Below are positions 21,587 through 43,623 of a DNA stretch of 64,000 nt, piece after piece. The notes beneath the pieces are model-generated. The model had not been told where the DNA came from and did no database searches. It was given only the letters and a program-made list of their open reading frames with translations. Origin of the DNA: Lacrimispora saccharolytica (GTDB taxonomy: Bacteria > Bacillota > Clostridia > Lachnospirales > Lachnospiraceae); NCBI GenBank assembly GCA_021531795.1, contig JADYUL010000001.1, positions 124,001-188,000 on the forward strand. Direction: 5' to 3'. Position 1 is the first letter of the stretch. The number at the start of each line of letters is the position of its first letter. A program made the translations under genes and the position numbers.

Positions 21587-22567
21587 TTGGGTGAGGTATT
21601 ATCTCAGAGCGAGATAGACAGCTTGTTAGCTGCCTTGAGTACCGGTGAGTTAGATGCTGAAGAGATATCCAAGAAGGATGAGAAGCAGGTTCGCAACTAT
21701 GATTTTGCCCGTCCTGCCAAGTTCTCCAAAGAGCATTTACGTACATTAGAGATTATATATGAGCATTATGGCAGACTGTTATCAACTAACCTGCCATTGT
21801 ATCTTAGGAAGAGCGTTCAGGTATCGGTTGCCAGTTCCGAGACAGTAATATTCTCGGAGTTCTCCAATGCACTTTCTAATCCGGTCATACTCGGAATCGT
21901 TGATTTTCAGCCCTTGAAGGGCCAGATAATTATAGAGTTGGCATCTAACCTTGGATTTGCCATGATAGACAGAATGCTTGGCGGACAGGGAGTGCCGATA
22001 GACAGGGAGAGAGATTTCTCGGATATAGAGATGGTTATCCTTGAGAAAATCATGGTGCTGTGTATGCAGCTGATGAAGGACCCCTGGAAGAACGTAGTGG
22101 ATATAGATCCCTATCTGGAGAGGATAGAGACCAATCCGCAGTTTGCTCAGATTATAGCGCCGAATGACATGATAGCTATTGTCACGATGAACGTGAAGAT
22201 AGGCGATGTCGAAGGCTTCATGAACATATGTCTTCCATTTGTGACAGTGGAGGATGTTATGGATAAGCTGAATACCAAGTTCTGGTATTCAACTATGAGA
22301 GAGAGCTCGGGTGAGGATTATTCACATTACGTCGAAGCAATGATCAGACGTGTGGATGTTCCCGTTAAGGCGCTGCTTGGAAAGAGTACCATAACCGTGA
22401 ATGATTTCGTCAATCTTCAGGTTGGAGATATTATCAGACTTGATACAAGTGAGACTGATGAGATGGACGTTTACGTGGGTAATATTAAGAAATTTAAGGC
22501 TATGCCGGGTAAGAATGGTGAGAACTATGCTGTCCGGGTTACATCAGTCATAAGAGAGGAGGAATAG
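21587..22567 (+). CDS. fliM: Flagellar motor switch protein FliM
   Basis: C-ring protein that receives CheY-P. The 326 residues start MGEVLSQSEIDSLL, the CheY-binding EIDALL-type motif, followed by the CheC-like middle domain and a C-terminal FliN-like domain. The start is TTG, supported by GGGGAGGTGA at 21571-21580. fliY follows after 4 bases. Confidence 0.96.
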   Translation: MGEVLSQSEIDSLLAALSTGELDAEEISKKDEKQVRNYDFARPAKFSKEHLRTLEIIYEHYGRLLSTNLPLYLRKSVQVSVASSETVIFSEFSNALSNPVILGIVDFQPLKGQIIIELASNLGFAMIDRMLGGQGVPIDRERDFSDIEMVILEKIMVLCMQLMKDPWKNVVDIDPYLERIETNPQFAQIIAPNDMIAIVTMNVKIGDVEGFMNICLPFVTVEDVMDKLNTKFWYSTMRESSGEDYSHYVEAMIRRVDVPVKALLGKSTITVNDFVNLQVGDIIRLDTSETDEMDVYVGNIKKFKAMPGKNGENYAVRVTSVIREEE

Positions 22568-22571
22568 AAGC

Positions 22572-23825
22572 ATGGATGGTGGTATTTTATCTCAGGACGA
22601 GATAAATGCGCTGCTAAGCGGTATGGCTTCGGGTGAGCCGATACCGGAAACACCTGCAGCCCCAGAACCGGCACCTAAAGCTGATCCATCACCTTCGTAC
22701 GCTCCGACTTTCGGAGATGTTACGCTGAGTGACATGGAGAAGGATGCGATAGGTGAAGTGGCCAATATTAGCATGGGAACATCCGCAACTACTCTATTTT
22801 CCCTTGTTAATAAAAAAGTATATATTACAACTCCTGTTGTAGACCTTTGTACATGGAAGGAACTTCAGGAGGAGAGCAAGAAGCCTTGTGTCTTTATCCA
22901 GATTAAGTACACCTGTGGACTTGACGGTTCCAATATACTGATCCTGTCAGAACAGGATGTTAAGGTGATTACCGATCTGATGATGGGTGGAGACGGTACC
23001 AATGTAGAAGGTGAGCTCAGTGAACTTCATCTGAGCGCCATTTCAGAGGCTATGAACCAGATGATGGGTTCATCGGCAACCTCGCTTTCGACAATGCTTG
23101 GTAAGATGATAGACATTTCACCGCCGATTGCTAATCTTGTGGATATGCAGGATGGTAATACAGACGGAACCAATGTGGCAGACTTCTTAGCAGGAACCTT
23201 TGTAAAGATTTCATTCAGGATGCAGATTGATGAGCTTGTGGACAGCACGATATTACAGCTGTATCCGGTAGAGTTTGCCAAGGAAATTGTTCAGACCTTC
23301 TTAGGTGGAGATCTGATAATGCCTGAGGAAGAACCGGCCAAAGAGCCCGAACCTACCGTAGAGGCATATGTTCCTCCGGTTGTTACGCCGACACCGCAGC
23401 CTGAAGCTGTTCAGCCTGCAAGTACACCGGTAGCACCACCTCCGGTGAATATGGCAGCGCAGATGCAGCCGCAGCAGCCTGTCTATACCGGAATGCCAAT
23501 GTATGGAATGCCGCAGCAGCCACAGGCACCGATGAATTATCAGCAGGCACAATTCCAGAGCTTCCAAGGCAATGTCGCTGCAGTACCGGGTAATGAGAAT
23601 ATTGGGCTCATTATGGATGTACCGCTGGAGGTTACAGTTGAACTGGGAAGAACCAGGAAATCTATTTCAGAGATTCTTGACTTTGCTCCCGGCACTATCA
23701 TTGAGCTTGATAAGATAGCCGGAGAGCCCATAGATGTTTTGGTTAACGGTAAATTCGTAGCCAAGGGTGAAGTTGTTGTTATTGAGGAAAGTTTTGGTAT
23801 TCGTGTAACTGAAATTACCAAGTAG
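22572..23825 (+). CDS. fliY: Motor switch phosphatase FliY (FliN-type)
   Basis: C-ring component that both builds the switch and dephosphorylates CheY-P. The 417-residue protein has an N-terminal CheY-binding motif (LSQDEINALLSG), a CheC-type domain with two E-x2-N sites (EVAN and EAMN), and a long Pro/Gln-rich linker (about 245-330). A FliN domain follows (VPLEVTVELGRTRKSI). The linker is longer than in B. subtilis FliY. Confidence 0.95.
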   Translation: MDGGILSQDEINALLSGMASGEPIPETPAAPEPAPKADPSPSYAPTFGDVTLSDMEKDAIGEVANISMGTSATTLFSLVNKKVYITTPVVDLCTWKELQEESKKPCVFIQIKYTCGLDGSNILILSEQDVKVITDLMMGGDGTNVEGELSELHLSAISEAMNQMMGSSATSLSTMLGKMIDISPPIANLVDMQDGNTDGTNVADFLAGTFVKISFRMQIDELVDSTILQLYPVEFAKEIVQTFLGGDLIMPEEEPAKEPEPTVEAYVPPVVTPTPQPEAVQPASTPVAPPPVNMAAQMQPQQPVYTGMPMYGMPQQPQAPMNYQQAQFQSFQGNVAAVPGNENIGLIMDVPLEVTVELGRTRKSISEILDFAPGTIIELDKIAGEPIDVLVNGKFVAKGEVVVIEESFGIRVTEITK

Positions 23826-23842: not shown

Positions 23843-24205
23843 ATGGCAAAGAACATTTTAATCTGCGATGATGCGGCATTCATGAGAATGATGATTAAGG
23901 ACATCCTGACAAAGAATGGCTATAATGTTGCAGGAGAGGCAGAGAACGGAGCCAAGGGTGTAGAGAAGTATAACGAGCTTAAGCCGGACCTGGTACTTAT
24001 GGATATCACAATGCCCGAGATGGACGGTATTCAGGCACTTAAGGCAATTAAGGCTGCCGATGCAGATGCTAAGGTCATAATGTGTTCTGCAATGGGTCAG
24101 CAGGCGATGGTTATAGAGTCAATCCAGAGCGGTGCCAAGGACTTCATTGTTAAGCCTTTCCAGGCTGACAGAGTATTGGAAGCGGTTAAGAAAGTGGTTG
24201 GATAA
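23843..24205 (+). CDS. cheY: Chemotaxis response regulator CheY
   Basis: Single-domain receiver, 120 residues, phosphorylated by CheA and read by FliM. Acidic residues D9/D10, the phospho-acceptor D54 (LMDITMP) and the conserved lysine in IVKPF are present. Its place between fliY and fliO is as in B. subtilis. It is distinct from the second CheY at 43152. Confidence 0.96.
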   Translation: MAKNILICDDAAFMRMMIKDILTKNGYNVAGEAENGAKGVEKYNELKPDLVLMDITMPEMDGIQALKAIKAADADAKVIMCSAMGQQAMVIESIQSGAKDFIVKPFQADRVLEAVKKVVG

Positions 24206-36452: not shown

Positions 36453-37073
36453 ATGGCAGAATTGTCCATGGAGAGCCTGACCACGCAGTACTTTGACGTA
36501 CTTAAGGAAATAGGAAATATTGGAGCGGGTAATGCTACCACAGCTCTTGCAACAATGCTACAGTGCAAGGTCGACATGAAGGTTCCTCAGGTAAGAATGA
36601 TGGAATTCAAGGATGTCGGTGCGCTTCTTGGTGGAGAGGAGCAGGAGCTTGCAGGTGCCTATCTGTCGGTTGAAGGCGATATTACGGGTTCAATTCTCTT
36701 CCTGGTGCAGAAGGAGGTTGCACTACATCTTGTATCCAAACTCATGGGAGGCATGGGTGGAGATGAATTCGGAGAGATGGAACGCTCGGCCTTTAAGGAA
36801 ATCAGTAATATTGTTACGGGTTCTTATCTAAACGCATTATCTACAATGACCAATATGTGCATATATCCCTCAATTCCGGATTTGGCGATAGATATGGCGG
36901 GCGCGATTCTAAGCGTACCTGCGATAGAATTCGGAATCATGGGAGATAAGATCCTGTTGATCCAGTCTCAGATTTCGGATGAGATTGAGATGGACGGATT
37001 CTTCGTTATGATTCCAGACATGGAGTCATATGTAAAAATATTAAGAGCACTGGGAATCCCCGTTGAGGATTAA
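36453..37073 (+). CDS. cheC: CheY-P phosphatase CheC
   Basis: 206 residues with both conserved phosphatase sites, D-x3-E-x2-N (DVLKEIGN) and a second E-x2-N (KEISN), each followed by the family proline about 22 residues on. CheC is activated by CheD in B. subtilis, and cheD is next. It starts 3 bases after cheW. Confidence 0.96.
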   Translation: MAELSMESLTTQYFDVLKEIGNIGAGNATTALATMLQCKVDMKVPQVRMMEFKDVGALLGGEEQELAGAYLSVEGDITGSILFLVQKEVALHLVSKLMGGMGGDEFGEMERSAFKEISNIVTGSYLNALSTMTNMCIYPSIPDLAIDMAGAILSVPAIEFGIMGDKILLIQSQISDEIEMDGFFVMIPDMESYVKILRALGIPVED

Positions 37074-42190: not shown

Positions 42191-42219
42191 TTGAATAATA
42201 TTGTGAAAAAGTTTATAAT
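42191..42219 (+). promoter_or_regulatory. Predicted sigma-A promoter of the MshEN-CheX/cheY unit
   Basis: TTGAAT (42191-42196), 17 bases and a perfect TATAAT (42214-42219), 30 bases before the ATG at 42250. It makes the next two genes independent of the fla/che operon. No sigma-28 motif is seen here. Confidence 0.65.
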
Positions 42220-42249
42220 ACACTTAGTTTATAGCAAAGGAGAGGTTCA

Positions 42250-43137
42250 ATGTTTGATCGTATTTTCGCGAATTATCTTGTAAGTGAAGGCAAGCTTGAC
42301 GAGAAGCAGCTCGCAGAAGCATTCACATCACAGGCTGAGAAGAGAGTAAGACTCGGTGTGATTGCAGTCTCTGAGAAGATGATGACCATAGAGCAGGTTG
42401 AAGAAGTTAATCAGCTTCAGGCAATCTACGACAGAAGATTCGGTGATATAGCTATTGAGAAGGGATATCTTACTGATGAACAGGTAGGCAGATTACTTGT
42501 ACTCCAGGGCAACTCCTTCCTCGCATTTATGCAGTCGGTAATTGATAAGGGATTCCTTACAATGAATGAGTTTGATGATGCACTCAGTGCTTATCAGCTC
42601 GAGAACGGATTTACCCTTGCCAATATGGAAGACCTTAAGAGCTGTGATATTGACAGAGTTATTCCTATATTTATTTATGACCAGCCTGATATCATCAAGA
42701 GCCTTGCGGGTATAATGGTGAGAACCATTGCAAGACTTATTGATTATCATGTATATATCAAGAGACCTACAGTATCTGATGTTGTTAAGTTCGATGCTCT
42801 GTGCGCTCAGCCCATATTTGGCCAGCATAAGGTATTAACAGCAATCTCCGGTACAATAAAGGATGCATTGTTTGATATGGCTGTTGGTTTTGCGGGATGC
42901 GAGAACGTAGCAGAGGATGAGGATTGCCTCGACGCACTCTGTGAACTTATCAACTGTGTGAATGGCCTTTTGGCAACAGAGATGAGCGGCAAGGATATTG
43001 ATATCGATATGGATGCCCCGTTCTCGGTAAGCGAACCCGGTACAATCGAAAGCGAAGCCATTCTAACATTACCCATAGTTGTATATGGTAATGAGCTGAA
43101 ACTTCATTTGATTCTTGATAAGGCTTATAGCATTTAG
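42250..43137 (+). CDS. MshEN-like repeat protein with CheX-type phosphatase motif
   Basis: 295 residues. Four 29-residue N-terminal repeats start near residues 5, 34, 63 and 92. Repeats 2 and 3 follow the MshEN pattern R-[LF]-G-x6-[KG]-x6-V-x6-Q, each 24 residues with a 5-residue spacer, as described for the c-di-GMP-binding MshEN domain of MshE ATPases. The C-terminal half carries D228-x3-E232-x2-N235 and P257, the CheC/CheX/FliY phosphatase signature. It is followed 14 bases later by a stand-alone CheY. A phosphatase for that CheY, controlled by c-di-GMP, is a reasonable inference. Repeat 2 has Lys instead of Gly and Asn instead of Leu, so ligand binding needs proof. Confidence 0.7.
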   Translation: MFDRIFANYLVSEGKLDEKQLAEAFTSQAEKRVRLGVIAVSEKMMTIEQVEEVNQLQAIYDRRFGDIAIEKGYLTDEQVGRLLVLQGNSFLAFMQSVIDKGFLTMNEFDDALSAYQLENGFTLANMEDLKSCDIDRVIPIFIYDQPDIIKSLAGIMVRTIARLIDYHVYIKRPTVSDVVKFDALCAQPIFGQHKVLTAISGTIKDALFDMAVGFAGCENVAEDEDCLDALCELINCVNGLLATEMSGKDIDIDMDAPFSVSEPGTIESEAILTLPIVVYGNELKLHLILDKAYSI

Positions 43138-43151
43138 GGAGGTTGAGAATA

Positions 43152-43508
43152 ATGGCTAATATAATGATTGTAGATGATTCGAGAATATTGCGTAAAATAT
43201 TGACCAATACACTTGTTGAGGCCGGACATACAATTGTTGCCGATGCGGGTAATGGTAAGGAGGCTTTGCTTCTTCTTGAGAAGATCAAGCCCGATCTGGT
43301 TACACTTGATATTACAATGCCTGTTATGGATGGTATAGAGGCGCTTAAGGAGATTAAGAAGAACTATCCGGATGTTACCGTAATCATGGTAAGTGCAGCA
43401 GGACAGAAAAACAAGGTTCTTGAGGCACTCAAGTCCGGAGCAAGCGACTTTATTCAGAAGCCTTTCGAGCCTGAGGATGTGATCAATGTGATCAGCAAGT
43501 TCGTATAA
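43152..43508 (+). CDS. CheY-like single-domain response regulator
   Basis: 118 residues and only a receiver domain. D8/D9, phospho-acceptor D53 (LVTLDITMP), S81 and K103 (IQKPF) are all present, so it should be phosphorylatable. ATG 43152 is preferred over TTG 43143 because GGGAGGTTG ends at 43144. It is cotranscribed with the MshEN-CheX gene and followed by a strong terminator. It resembles chemotaxis CheY proteins rather than DNA-binding regulators. The cognate kinase may be the operon CheA or another kinase. Confidence 0.93.
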   Translation: MANIMIVDDSRILRKILTNTLVEAGHTIVADAGNGKEALLLLEKIKPDLVTLDITMPVMDGIEALKEIKKNYPDVTVIMVSAAGQKNKVLEALKSGASDFIQKPFEPEDVINVISKFV

Positions 43509-43520
43509 ATATGATAATTC

Positions 43521-43552
43521 GAGCCGCGAAGCATGCTTCGTGGCTCTTTTTT
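43521..43552 (+). terminator. Intrinsic terminator of the MshEN-CheX/cheY unit
   Basis: A 12-bp stem with one G-U pair, GAGCCGCGAAGC (43521-43532) with GCTTCGTGGCTC (43535-43546), 2-base closing AT (the effective loop is slightly larger), followed by six Ts. Confidence 0.88.
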
Positions 43553-43594: not shown

Positions 43595-43623
43595 TTGAAA
43601 TTGTTTTTTCAACATGTTAAAAT
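43595..43623 (+). promoter_or_regulatory. Predicted sigma-A promoter of rpsB-tsf
   Basis: TTGAAA (43595-43600), 17 bases and TAAAAT (43618-43623). The start would be near 43630, giving a leader of about 130 bases. Confidence 0.7.

Follow-up and report, generated by a model that had tools for sequence, protein, structure and literature searches.

A gene pair for an MshEN-CheX protein and a CheY in Lachnospiraceae, a candidate module for control of CheY-P lifetime by c-di-GMP

Two described kinds of protein come closest to the one considered here. CheX phosphatases, known from Thermotoga maritima (structures 1xko and 1squ) and Borrelia (3hzh), work with CheY and have an E-x2-N motif followed by a later proline. 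MshEN or GSPII domains, as in Vibrio cholerae MshE (5htl) and Thermus PilF (GSPII-B), are four-helix bundles with two 24-residue motifs, a 5-residue spacer and G and Q contacts to cyclic diguanylate (c-di-GMP). In a stretch of 64,000 nucleotides (nt) from Lacrimispora saccharolytica (contig JADYUL010000001.1, positions 124,001 to 188,000; this whole stretch is called the window) we analysed a pair of genes in which the two meet: the first codes for P0001, a protein that we refer to as MX, and the second for P0002, a stand-alone CheY. MX resembles the CheX phosphatases in its predicted fold (Z ~16.6), in the E-x2-N motif with the later proline and in its association with a CheY; it adds to them an N-terminal region of four MshEN-type repeats and a CheY gene that is next door or fused. 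It resembles the MshEN domains in motifs, spacer, predicted bundle and G and Q residues; unlike theirs, its repeats are joined to CheX and not to an ATPase, are four in number, are without the C-terminal subdomain and have K43, N54 and, in place of L39, F64.

To our knowledge, the route from c-di-GMP to the chemotaxis machinery is little known in Gram-positive anaerobes of the gut. Work on Cle of Caulobacter is said to have revealed a receiver that binds c-di-GMP. The CheY-like Cle is comparable with the module described here in that c-di-GMP is an input to a CheY-type motor signal (PMC5677366); the Caulobacter regulator is the CheY-like protein itself, whereas in the MX module c-di-GMP would act on the phosphatase. 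MshEN is known to occur with REC, HD-GYP, CheA, CheX and others (Wang et al. 2016, PMC5013675), so that, as far as a catalogue of domains goes, the statement of the initial annotation that no CheX protein with MshEN was known to it as described is not quite accurate. That paper names the same two domains as in MX in one sentence pointing to its supplement, and its available passages give MshEN-CheX no CheY pairing, function or test. Among the papers searched it is the only one to have both MshEN and CheX. No title or abstract opening listed in the literature searches, outside which lie most subscription papers and preprints, describes an MX-like protein. Thus the MshEN and CheX architecture has already been named, while the CheY pairing, the three arrangements, the subtypes and the CheA link were not met in that literature.

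The explanation that we prefer, with confidence that is evenly balanced, is a two-gene module in which c-di-GMP sets the lifetime of a dedicated CheY-P through an MshEN-gated CheX domain. Its computed support consists of both predicted folds, conservation of ligand and catalytic residues in the window's subtype, a complete phosphorylation site, three kinds of pairing, co-occurrence with CheA and the presence of domains that make c-di-GMP. The architecture proposed in the initial annotation (MshEN motifs, CheX, a dedicated CheY) is borne out by profile searches, structure prediction and comparative genomics. What we infer beyond this is that MX binds c-di-GMP and acts as a phosphatase, by what mechanism and with what sign the two are coupled, that CheA is the kinase and that the motor is the target. 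In such a scheme CheA would phosphorylate the partner CheY, and the CheX domain of MX would strip the phosphate from the partner CheY-P; c-di-GMP bound to the MshEN bundle of repeats 2 and 3 would alter the rate of this dephosphorylation, and the c-di-GMP level would set how long the CheY-P signal to the flagellar motor lasts or, in lineages without flagella, the signal to another CheA output. Should c-di-GMP activate CheX, high c-di-GMP would silence the partner CheY; should it inhibit CheX, the reverse would be expected. The main CheY would be left to CheC and a FliY-like protein.

Conservation of the MX-CheY pair

The pair was followed through loci of named genomes and through two surveys. 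The loci are the best 80 of at least 453 matching stretches in named genomes, a set biased to close relatives, whereas the surveys of 250 genomes of the window's family and of 398 genomes of its phylum were even draws. The family alignment, A2 (79 rows), was made from the 80 loci without L059, whose frame is broken, and L102, which lacks an M start, with L065 and L090 cut to the MshEN-CheX part; a further set, A1, is without L020, L021, L028 and L033.

MX was found in 17 of the 20 genomes of the window's genus. A CheY gene lies on the same strand within 103 nt of the MX gene in 76 of the best 80 loci, and MX and receiver are fused in two (L065 and L090); the other two are L052, at a contig end, and L066, with a transposase-like insertion between the genes. 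The insertion (L066:5940-7490) is a minus-strand transposase-like frame, IS110-like by eye, that separates the MX gene from the CheY gene.

For the family survey a carrier was defined as a genome with a match at E<1e-30, which holds for 77 of the 106 genomes with any match and leaves out, for example, G145 and G133. Carriers thus make up 77 of the 250 genomes, and the named records nearest to them are for the most part Lachnospiraceae of rumen and gut. Of these carriers, 42 have the receiver downstream of MX, 25 have it upstream and 7 have it fused to MX; the remaining 3 have none adjacent on the same strand (none next door in G209 and G268, a divergent one on the other strand in G235). The survey of the gene pair in Lachnospiraceae that the initial annotation had proposed shows it conserved. 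Beyond the family, 11 genomes of the phylum draw match at E<1e-30 and four more match weakly; in all of these 15 loci a receiver is next door on the same strand, upstream in 12 and downstream in 3. In locus L027, from another family, no receiver is found in the 1.4 kb upstream, and the contig stops 320 nt downstream. That MX and CheY are combined in three different arrangements argues strongly that they work together; the two are a conserved module.

Additional copies were also seen. Besides a fused MshEN-CheX-receiver protein, G027 has an MX copy that aligns only from residue 106 on (a 206-residue frame; L131:6237-7398) and has a CheY gene downstream. L136 and L138 are second MX paralogues, in G119 and G198, with no same-strand receiver next door.

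The two halves of MX and the partner CheY

The 29-residue repeats described in the initial annotation are real: residues 1-125 of MX match themselves best when shifted by 29, with a score that none of 2000 shuffles equalled at any shift between 10 and 59. Repeats 2 and 3 hold the two R-[LF]-G...Q motifs (residues 34-57 and 63-86) with their 5-residue spacer, in which the MshEN pattern had been recognized, the first with departures. NCBIfam NF053729 (MshE-related c-di-GMP motif) matches MX in three stretches with 53.6 bits (cut-off 38) and matches all 79 members of A2, P0001 included, at E<=0.001. In a search of the PDB, the A2 profile matched MshE (5htl) at E 2.5e-4 with the motifs in register: R34, L35, G36, V50, N54 and Q57 of MX correspond to R9, L10, G11, L25, L29 and Q32 of MshE, and R63, F64, G65, V79, L83 and Q86 to R38, L39, G40, L54, L58 and Q61.

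In a confident AlphaFold model (AF2), MX residues 32-89 are predicted to form a four-helix bundle of MshEN type. This segment compares with 5htl_B, MshE with c-di-GMP, at Z 10.5 (root-mean-square deviation, rmsd, 1.9 over 58 residues, 33% identity) and with PilF GSPII-B at Z 9.0-9.8. Foldseek matched the model to 5htl_B with rmsd 0.9 over 55 columns at E 0.94, a value that is high because the matched stretch is short. A fused MX-receiver was modelled as well (predicted local distance difference test, pLDDT, 94.8; predicted template modelling score, pTM, 0.79) from alignment A3, a subset of the available rows; the search of solved structures used the unfused model only.

The published MshEN motif, RLGxxhhxxGhhxxxxLxxxLxxQ, has 24 residues and occurs twice with a 5-residue spacer (PMC5013675). 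Motif 2 of MX, by reading of the letters, fits the relaxed form of this pattern, and motif 1 keeps R/K, L, G and Q. In both motifs the G and Q contacts are retained with hardly an exception, and the guanine 2 pocket (L35, V79, L83) differs little from the canonical one, given the residue roles described for MshE (PMC5013675). In truncated constructs of PilF GSPII-A binding was restored by way of the first R and both Q, with G needed for high affinity (PMC12002112), and the residues needed in that restoration are those kept in MX; PilF GSPII-B can bind very tightly with K or L at position 1 (PMC11731258).

Conservation was first counted over 169 rows, which are partly repetitive (7 of 48 high-scoring rows are also among the 79), and was recounted over 144 rows of <90% identity. 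In the 144 rows, the 11 least variable of the 295 MX positions include G36, Q57, F64, G65, Q86, N235 and G239. Mean entropy of the 12 ligand positions is 0.70 bits, compared with 1.57 bits for residues 30-90, ligand positions included (0.66 versus 1.50 bits in the 169 rows), and 3 of 20000 random draws were as low. We consider c-di-GMP binding by MX likely, not certain, on this pattern of residues.

The C-terminal half of MX has a predicted CheX fold. Residues 146-291 of the AF2 model align over 142-147 residues with eight structures of CheX or CheC-like proteins (Z 14.9-16.6), the top matches being 1squ_A (Z 16.6) and 3hzh_B (Z 16.6; Borrelia CheX in the CheX-CheY-BeF3 complex). Searched against the PDB, the A2 profile also matched T. 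maritima CheX (E 2e-4), in an alignment that places E232 and N235 on its E-x2-N and D228 on its S, and Pfam CheX (PF13690) matches all 79 A2 members, P0001 included, at E<=0.01 (best 2.8e-11). The D228-x3-E232-x2-N235...P257 signature pointed out in the initial annotation is present in MX, with all four residues invariant in the 79 rows. CheC (36453-37073) and the protein at 22554-23825, which we take to be FliY-like, belong to the same phosphatase superfamily and have CheX-type matches; presumably the signature (D/S)-x3-E-x2-N-x~22-P is common to them and MX. Compared with these two, MX has one D-E-N site and a CheX-type fold; no search for a FliN-type or CheD-interacting part was made in its CheX domain.

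P0002 is the stand-alone CheY that had been described as phosphorylatable, with a strong match to Response_reg and a complete phosphorylation site. Among 79 partner receivers, P0002 and the two fused ones included, D8, D9 and D53 are present in every one and T/S81 and K103 in 78 each, with one gap each; the 94 other receivers compared include one with A in place of D9 and one with V in place of T/S81. The operon has a CheY too (23843-24205), to which P0002 is paralogous at 46% identity. The partner CheYs resemble P0002 (mean identity 56%) more than they do this operon CheY (47%), and 70 of 76 are closer to P0002. By these comparisons P0002 looks like a dedicated CheY and not the main one.

Points against the module and alternative readings

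The observations collected in this section weigh against the proposed module or restrict it. In three of the 20 genomes of the genus, themselves 77-83% complete, no MX match was found. Pfam PF13690 gives P0001 23 bits, below its cut-off of 27. On residues 32-89 the C-termini of fumarase/aspartase reach Z 7.9, and Pfam FumaraseC_C matches MX there below cut-off; since small helical bundles match easily, the MshEN assignment draws on profile and register no less than on the fold. The MshEN C-terminal subdomain was not seen in the AF2 model of MX. Motif 1 departs from the published pattern in two places, K43 standing where position 10 should be G and N54 where position 21 should be hydrophobic, and the pocket for guanine 1 is remodelled, with V/A50, N54 and F64 for MshE L25, L29 and L39. 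In MshE, mutation of any single conserved hydrophobic residue cut affinity >10-fold (PMC5013675). N54 is invariant in the 79 A2 rows and is replaced by H, C, V, L and others in the subtype with the receiver upstream; it is therefore no general requirement. Finally, the downstream form of G212 is without the motif 1 contacts, and family f60 (L217 and L218; outside the window's family) has lost the ligand residues and has kept D-E-N and the receiver pairing. These two exceptions indicate that c-di-GMP coupling is not universal.

The departures of motif 1, the missing subdomain and the f60 lineage, which keeps the pair without the ligand residues, would suit a plain CheX phosphatase whose MshEN-like repeats serve as a scaffold or dimerization element and have lost c-di-GMP binding, the more so as not every GSPII domain binds c-di-GMP, PilF GSPII-A being an example (PMC12002112). 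We regard such a loss as improbable: the R (with K or L tolerated in its place), both Q and the G that matter in PilF (PMC12002112, PMC11731258) are kept in MX and are among the least variable positions of the family, while the equivalents of the ligand residues in the flanking repeats 1 and 4 are more variable on the whole.

The catalytic residues differ between arrangements. Counts over 47 downstream and fused forms, which leave out G000 and G012 (both also D/E/N), give D228 with E232 in 46 and N235 in all 47; the exception, G103, has N228, D232, A239 and I257. The 25 upstream forms of the family have A228 in 24, S228 in one and D232 in all, a further point against the module; N235, G36, Q57 and Q86 are kept in 25/25 and F64 and G65 in 24/25. 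In 12 upstream loci outside the family, E232 is present in 12 and N235 in 11. Hence the change of catalytic residues goes with gene order within the window's family, and judging by these residues the upstream form may be catalytically slow or inactive. Since the upstream subtype changes both residues, E232 and D228 come only 28th and 34th in the order of least variable positions in the 144 rows. The initial annotation would have been contradicted by absent family matches, another fold or unconserved residues; nothing of the kind was found for the window's subtype, and the part that does not extend to the upstream subtype (25/77) is the D and E, which are altered there.

That the upstream subtype replaces D228 and E232 and still keeps N235, the ligand residues and an adjacent receiver could mean that MX acts by docking on CheY alone and not by catalysis. 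The receiver fused to MX in 7 of 77 carriers would suit an internally gated protein. We consider this unlikely as an account of MX, given that D228 and E232 in 46/47 and N235 in 47/47 of the downstream and fused forms seem beyond what docking demands and that the sole D/E exception, G103, sits in a genome without a CheA match. CheC and the FliY-like protein are also in the window's genome, so that MX need not act on the main CheY; this, too, limits the proposal that c-di-GMP gates CheY-P removal through MX. A wider form of that proposal is put forward tentatively, at somewhat less than even confidence: a widespread Clostridia-type switch in which c-di-GMP controls CheY-P removal through MshEN-gated CheX, the sister subtype (CheY first, D/E changed to A/D) being a slow or non-catalytic reader.

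CheA, the flagellum and the setting of the pair

CheA is present in 74 of 77 carriers and 50 of 173 non-carriers, FliM in 71 of 77 and 51 of 173, respectively; the 2x2 test disregarded FliM matches weaker than 1e-20 (2/124). Six carriers are without FliM. Among these, G172 has FlhA, and G243 has sigD, fapA and cheW on the contig with MX, from which both are probably flagellated, with assembly gaps. G103 gave no match to CheA, CheW, FliM or FlhA. The other three (G150, G078 and G101) have CheA, CheW and the pair and no FliM or FlhA match. In G150 (L139, 9930-19945) the che genes lie between a TopA-like gene and rpsB, the usual site as in the window, and flagellar genes are absent. The carrier counts and the six genomes without FliM indicate that the module goes with the CheA system slightly more consistently than with the flagellum.

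These three genomes and the G150 locus would agree with a module that signals beyond the flagellum through CheA, for example to type IV pili. As the general role of the module we think this very unlikely, given the distribution of FliM over carriers and non-carriers and the failure of PilT to discriminate between them. Type IV pili were considered as a general partner and rejected: among genomes with FliM, PilT (E<1e-90, tally by reading) is found in 60 of 71 carriers and in 47 of 53 genomes without MX. As separate observations, chemotaxis genes are still near a TopA-like gene in L143 (G078) and L141 (G101), with rpsB also near in G078, and type IV pilus-like genes lie, by eye, just upstream of the che genes in G150.

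The window's genome has CheA. It also has GGDEF at 17 places, so that c-di-GMP is presumably made there. Its only other MshEN match is a 565-residue frame (71.1 bits; G000:C21:241258-243660) located ~1.2 kb from a PilT-like gene.

The window contains a flagellar and chemotaxis gene cluster; the pair is preceded by genes for a sigma factor, FapA, DUF6115 and a YceG-like protein and followed by rpsB and tsf (all names partly from Pfam, partly by eye). The reading frame of MX and the CheY gene following it are as first described, the ATG of P0002 starting 14 nt past the end of MX (Table 1).

Table 1. Features of the MX-CheY gene pair in the window
Feature	Coordinates	Strand	Basis
Sigma-A-type promoter TTGAAT-17-TATAAT of the pair	42191..42219	+	Consensus match, 10/12
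MX (P0001), MshEN-CheX protein, 295 aa	42250..43137	+	Open reading frame; AF2 model, pLDDT 94.9, pTM 0.87
Flanking degenerate repeat 1, MX residues 1-31	42250..42342	+	Model, conservation, periodicity
MshEN-type c-di-GMP motif bundle (predicted), repeats 2 and 3, MX residues 32-89	42343..42516	+	NF053729, PDB profile search, fold
Flanking degenerate repeat 4, MX residues 90-117	42517..42600	+	Model, conservation, periodicity
CheX domain (predicted) with D228/E232/N235/P257, MX residues 146-291	42685..43122	+	Alignment, PDB profile, fold
P0002, stand-alone CheY paralogue, 118 aa; D8, D9, D53, S81, K103	43152..43508	+	Response_reg PF00072, 110.7 bits
Intrinsic terminator, 11-pair stem then T-run	43521..43546	+	Consensus match only

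The initial annotation had given the pair its own sigma-A promoter and a strong terminator. Both are present as consensus matches; the stretch has 7 promoter-like sites, compared with 5.2 (sd 2.3) in shuffles, and 2 terminator-like sites, compared with 1.1 (sd 1.3). With site numbers so near the shuffled expectation, the promoter rests on its 10/12 match and on an aligned TATAAT in 7 of 14 upstream regions (those of the window, L046, L048, L053, L054, L058 and L107, the last from another genus). TATAAT is present outside the aligned place in L047 and absent from L049; it is likewise absent from L050, L051, L055, L056 and L057, where the MX gene follows the YceG-like gene. The aligned sequences thus indicate that a promoter of the pair's own is not general across the 13 other loci. 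The pair is oriented against the flagellar operon in L047, L048, L049, L053, L054 and L107; from this orientation and the upstream layouts, the pair is a unit of its own, near the flagellar operon in the window's genus. A second promoter-like site, TTGAAA-17-TAAAAT (43595-43623; 10/12, with TG before the second hexamer), lies 5′ of rpsB.

Two other candidates for parts of the unit were rejected. One was a c-di-GMP riboswitch, or any other known RNA, close to the pair: across the whole window no Rfam family scored as high as its gathering threshold. The other was a conserved third gene: neighbour clusters apart from MX and CheY occur in at most 23 of 65 loci outside the genus and look like housekeeping genes by eye.

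In MX, sensing of c-di-GMP and removal of phosphate from CheY-P may be physically joined in one protein, and the pair suggests a direct wire between c-di-GMP, the 'stay or swim' messenger, and chemotaxis. If this is true, the reach of MshEN would extend from secretion and pilus motors to the control of a phosphatase, and the module would be a common route, present in 77 of 250 genomes of the family, to the decision to swim or to settle.

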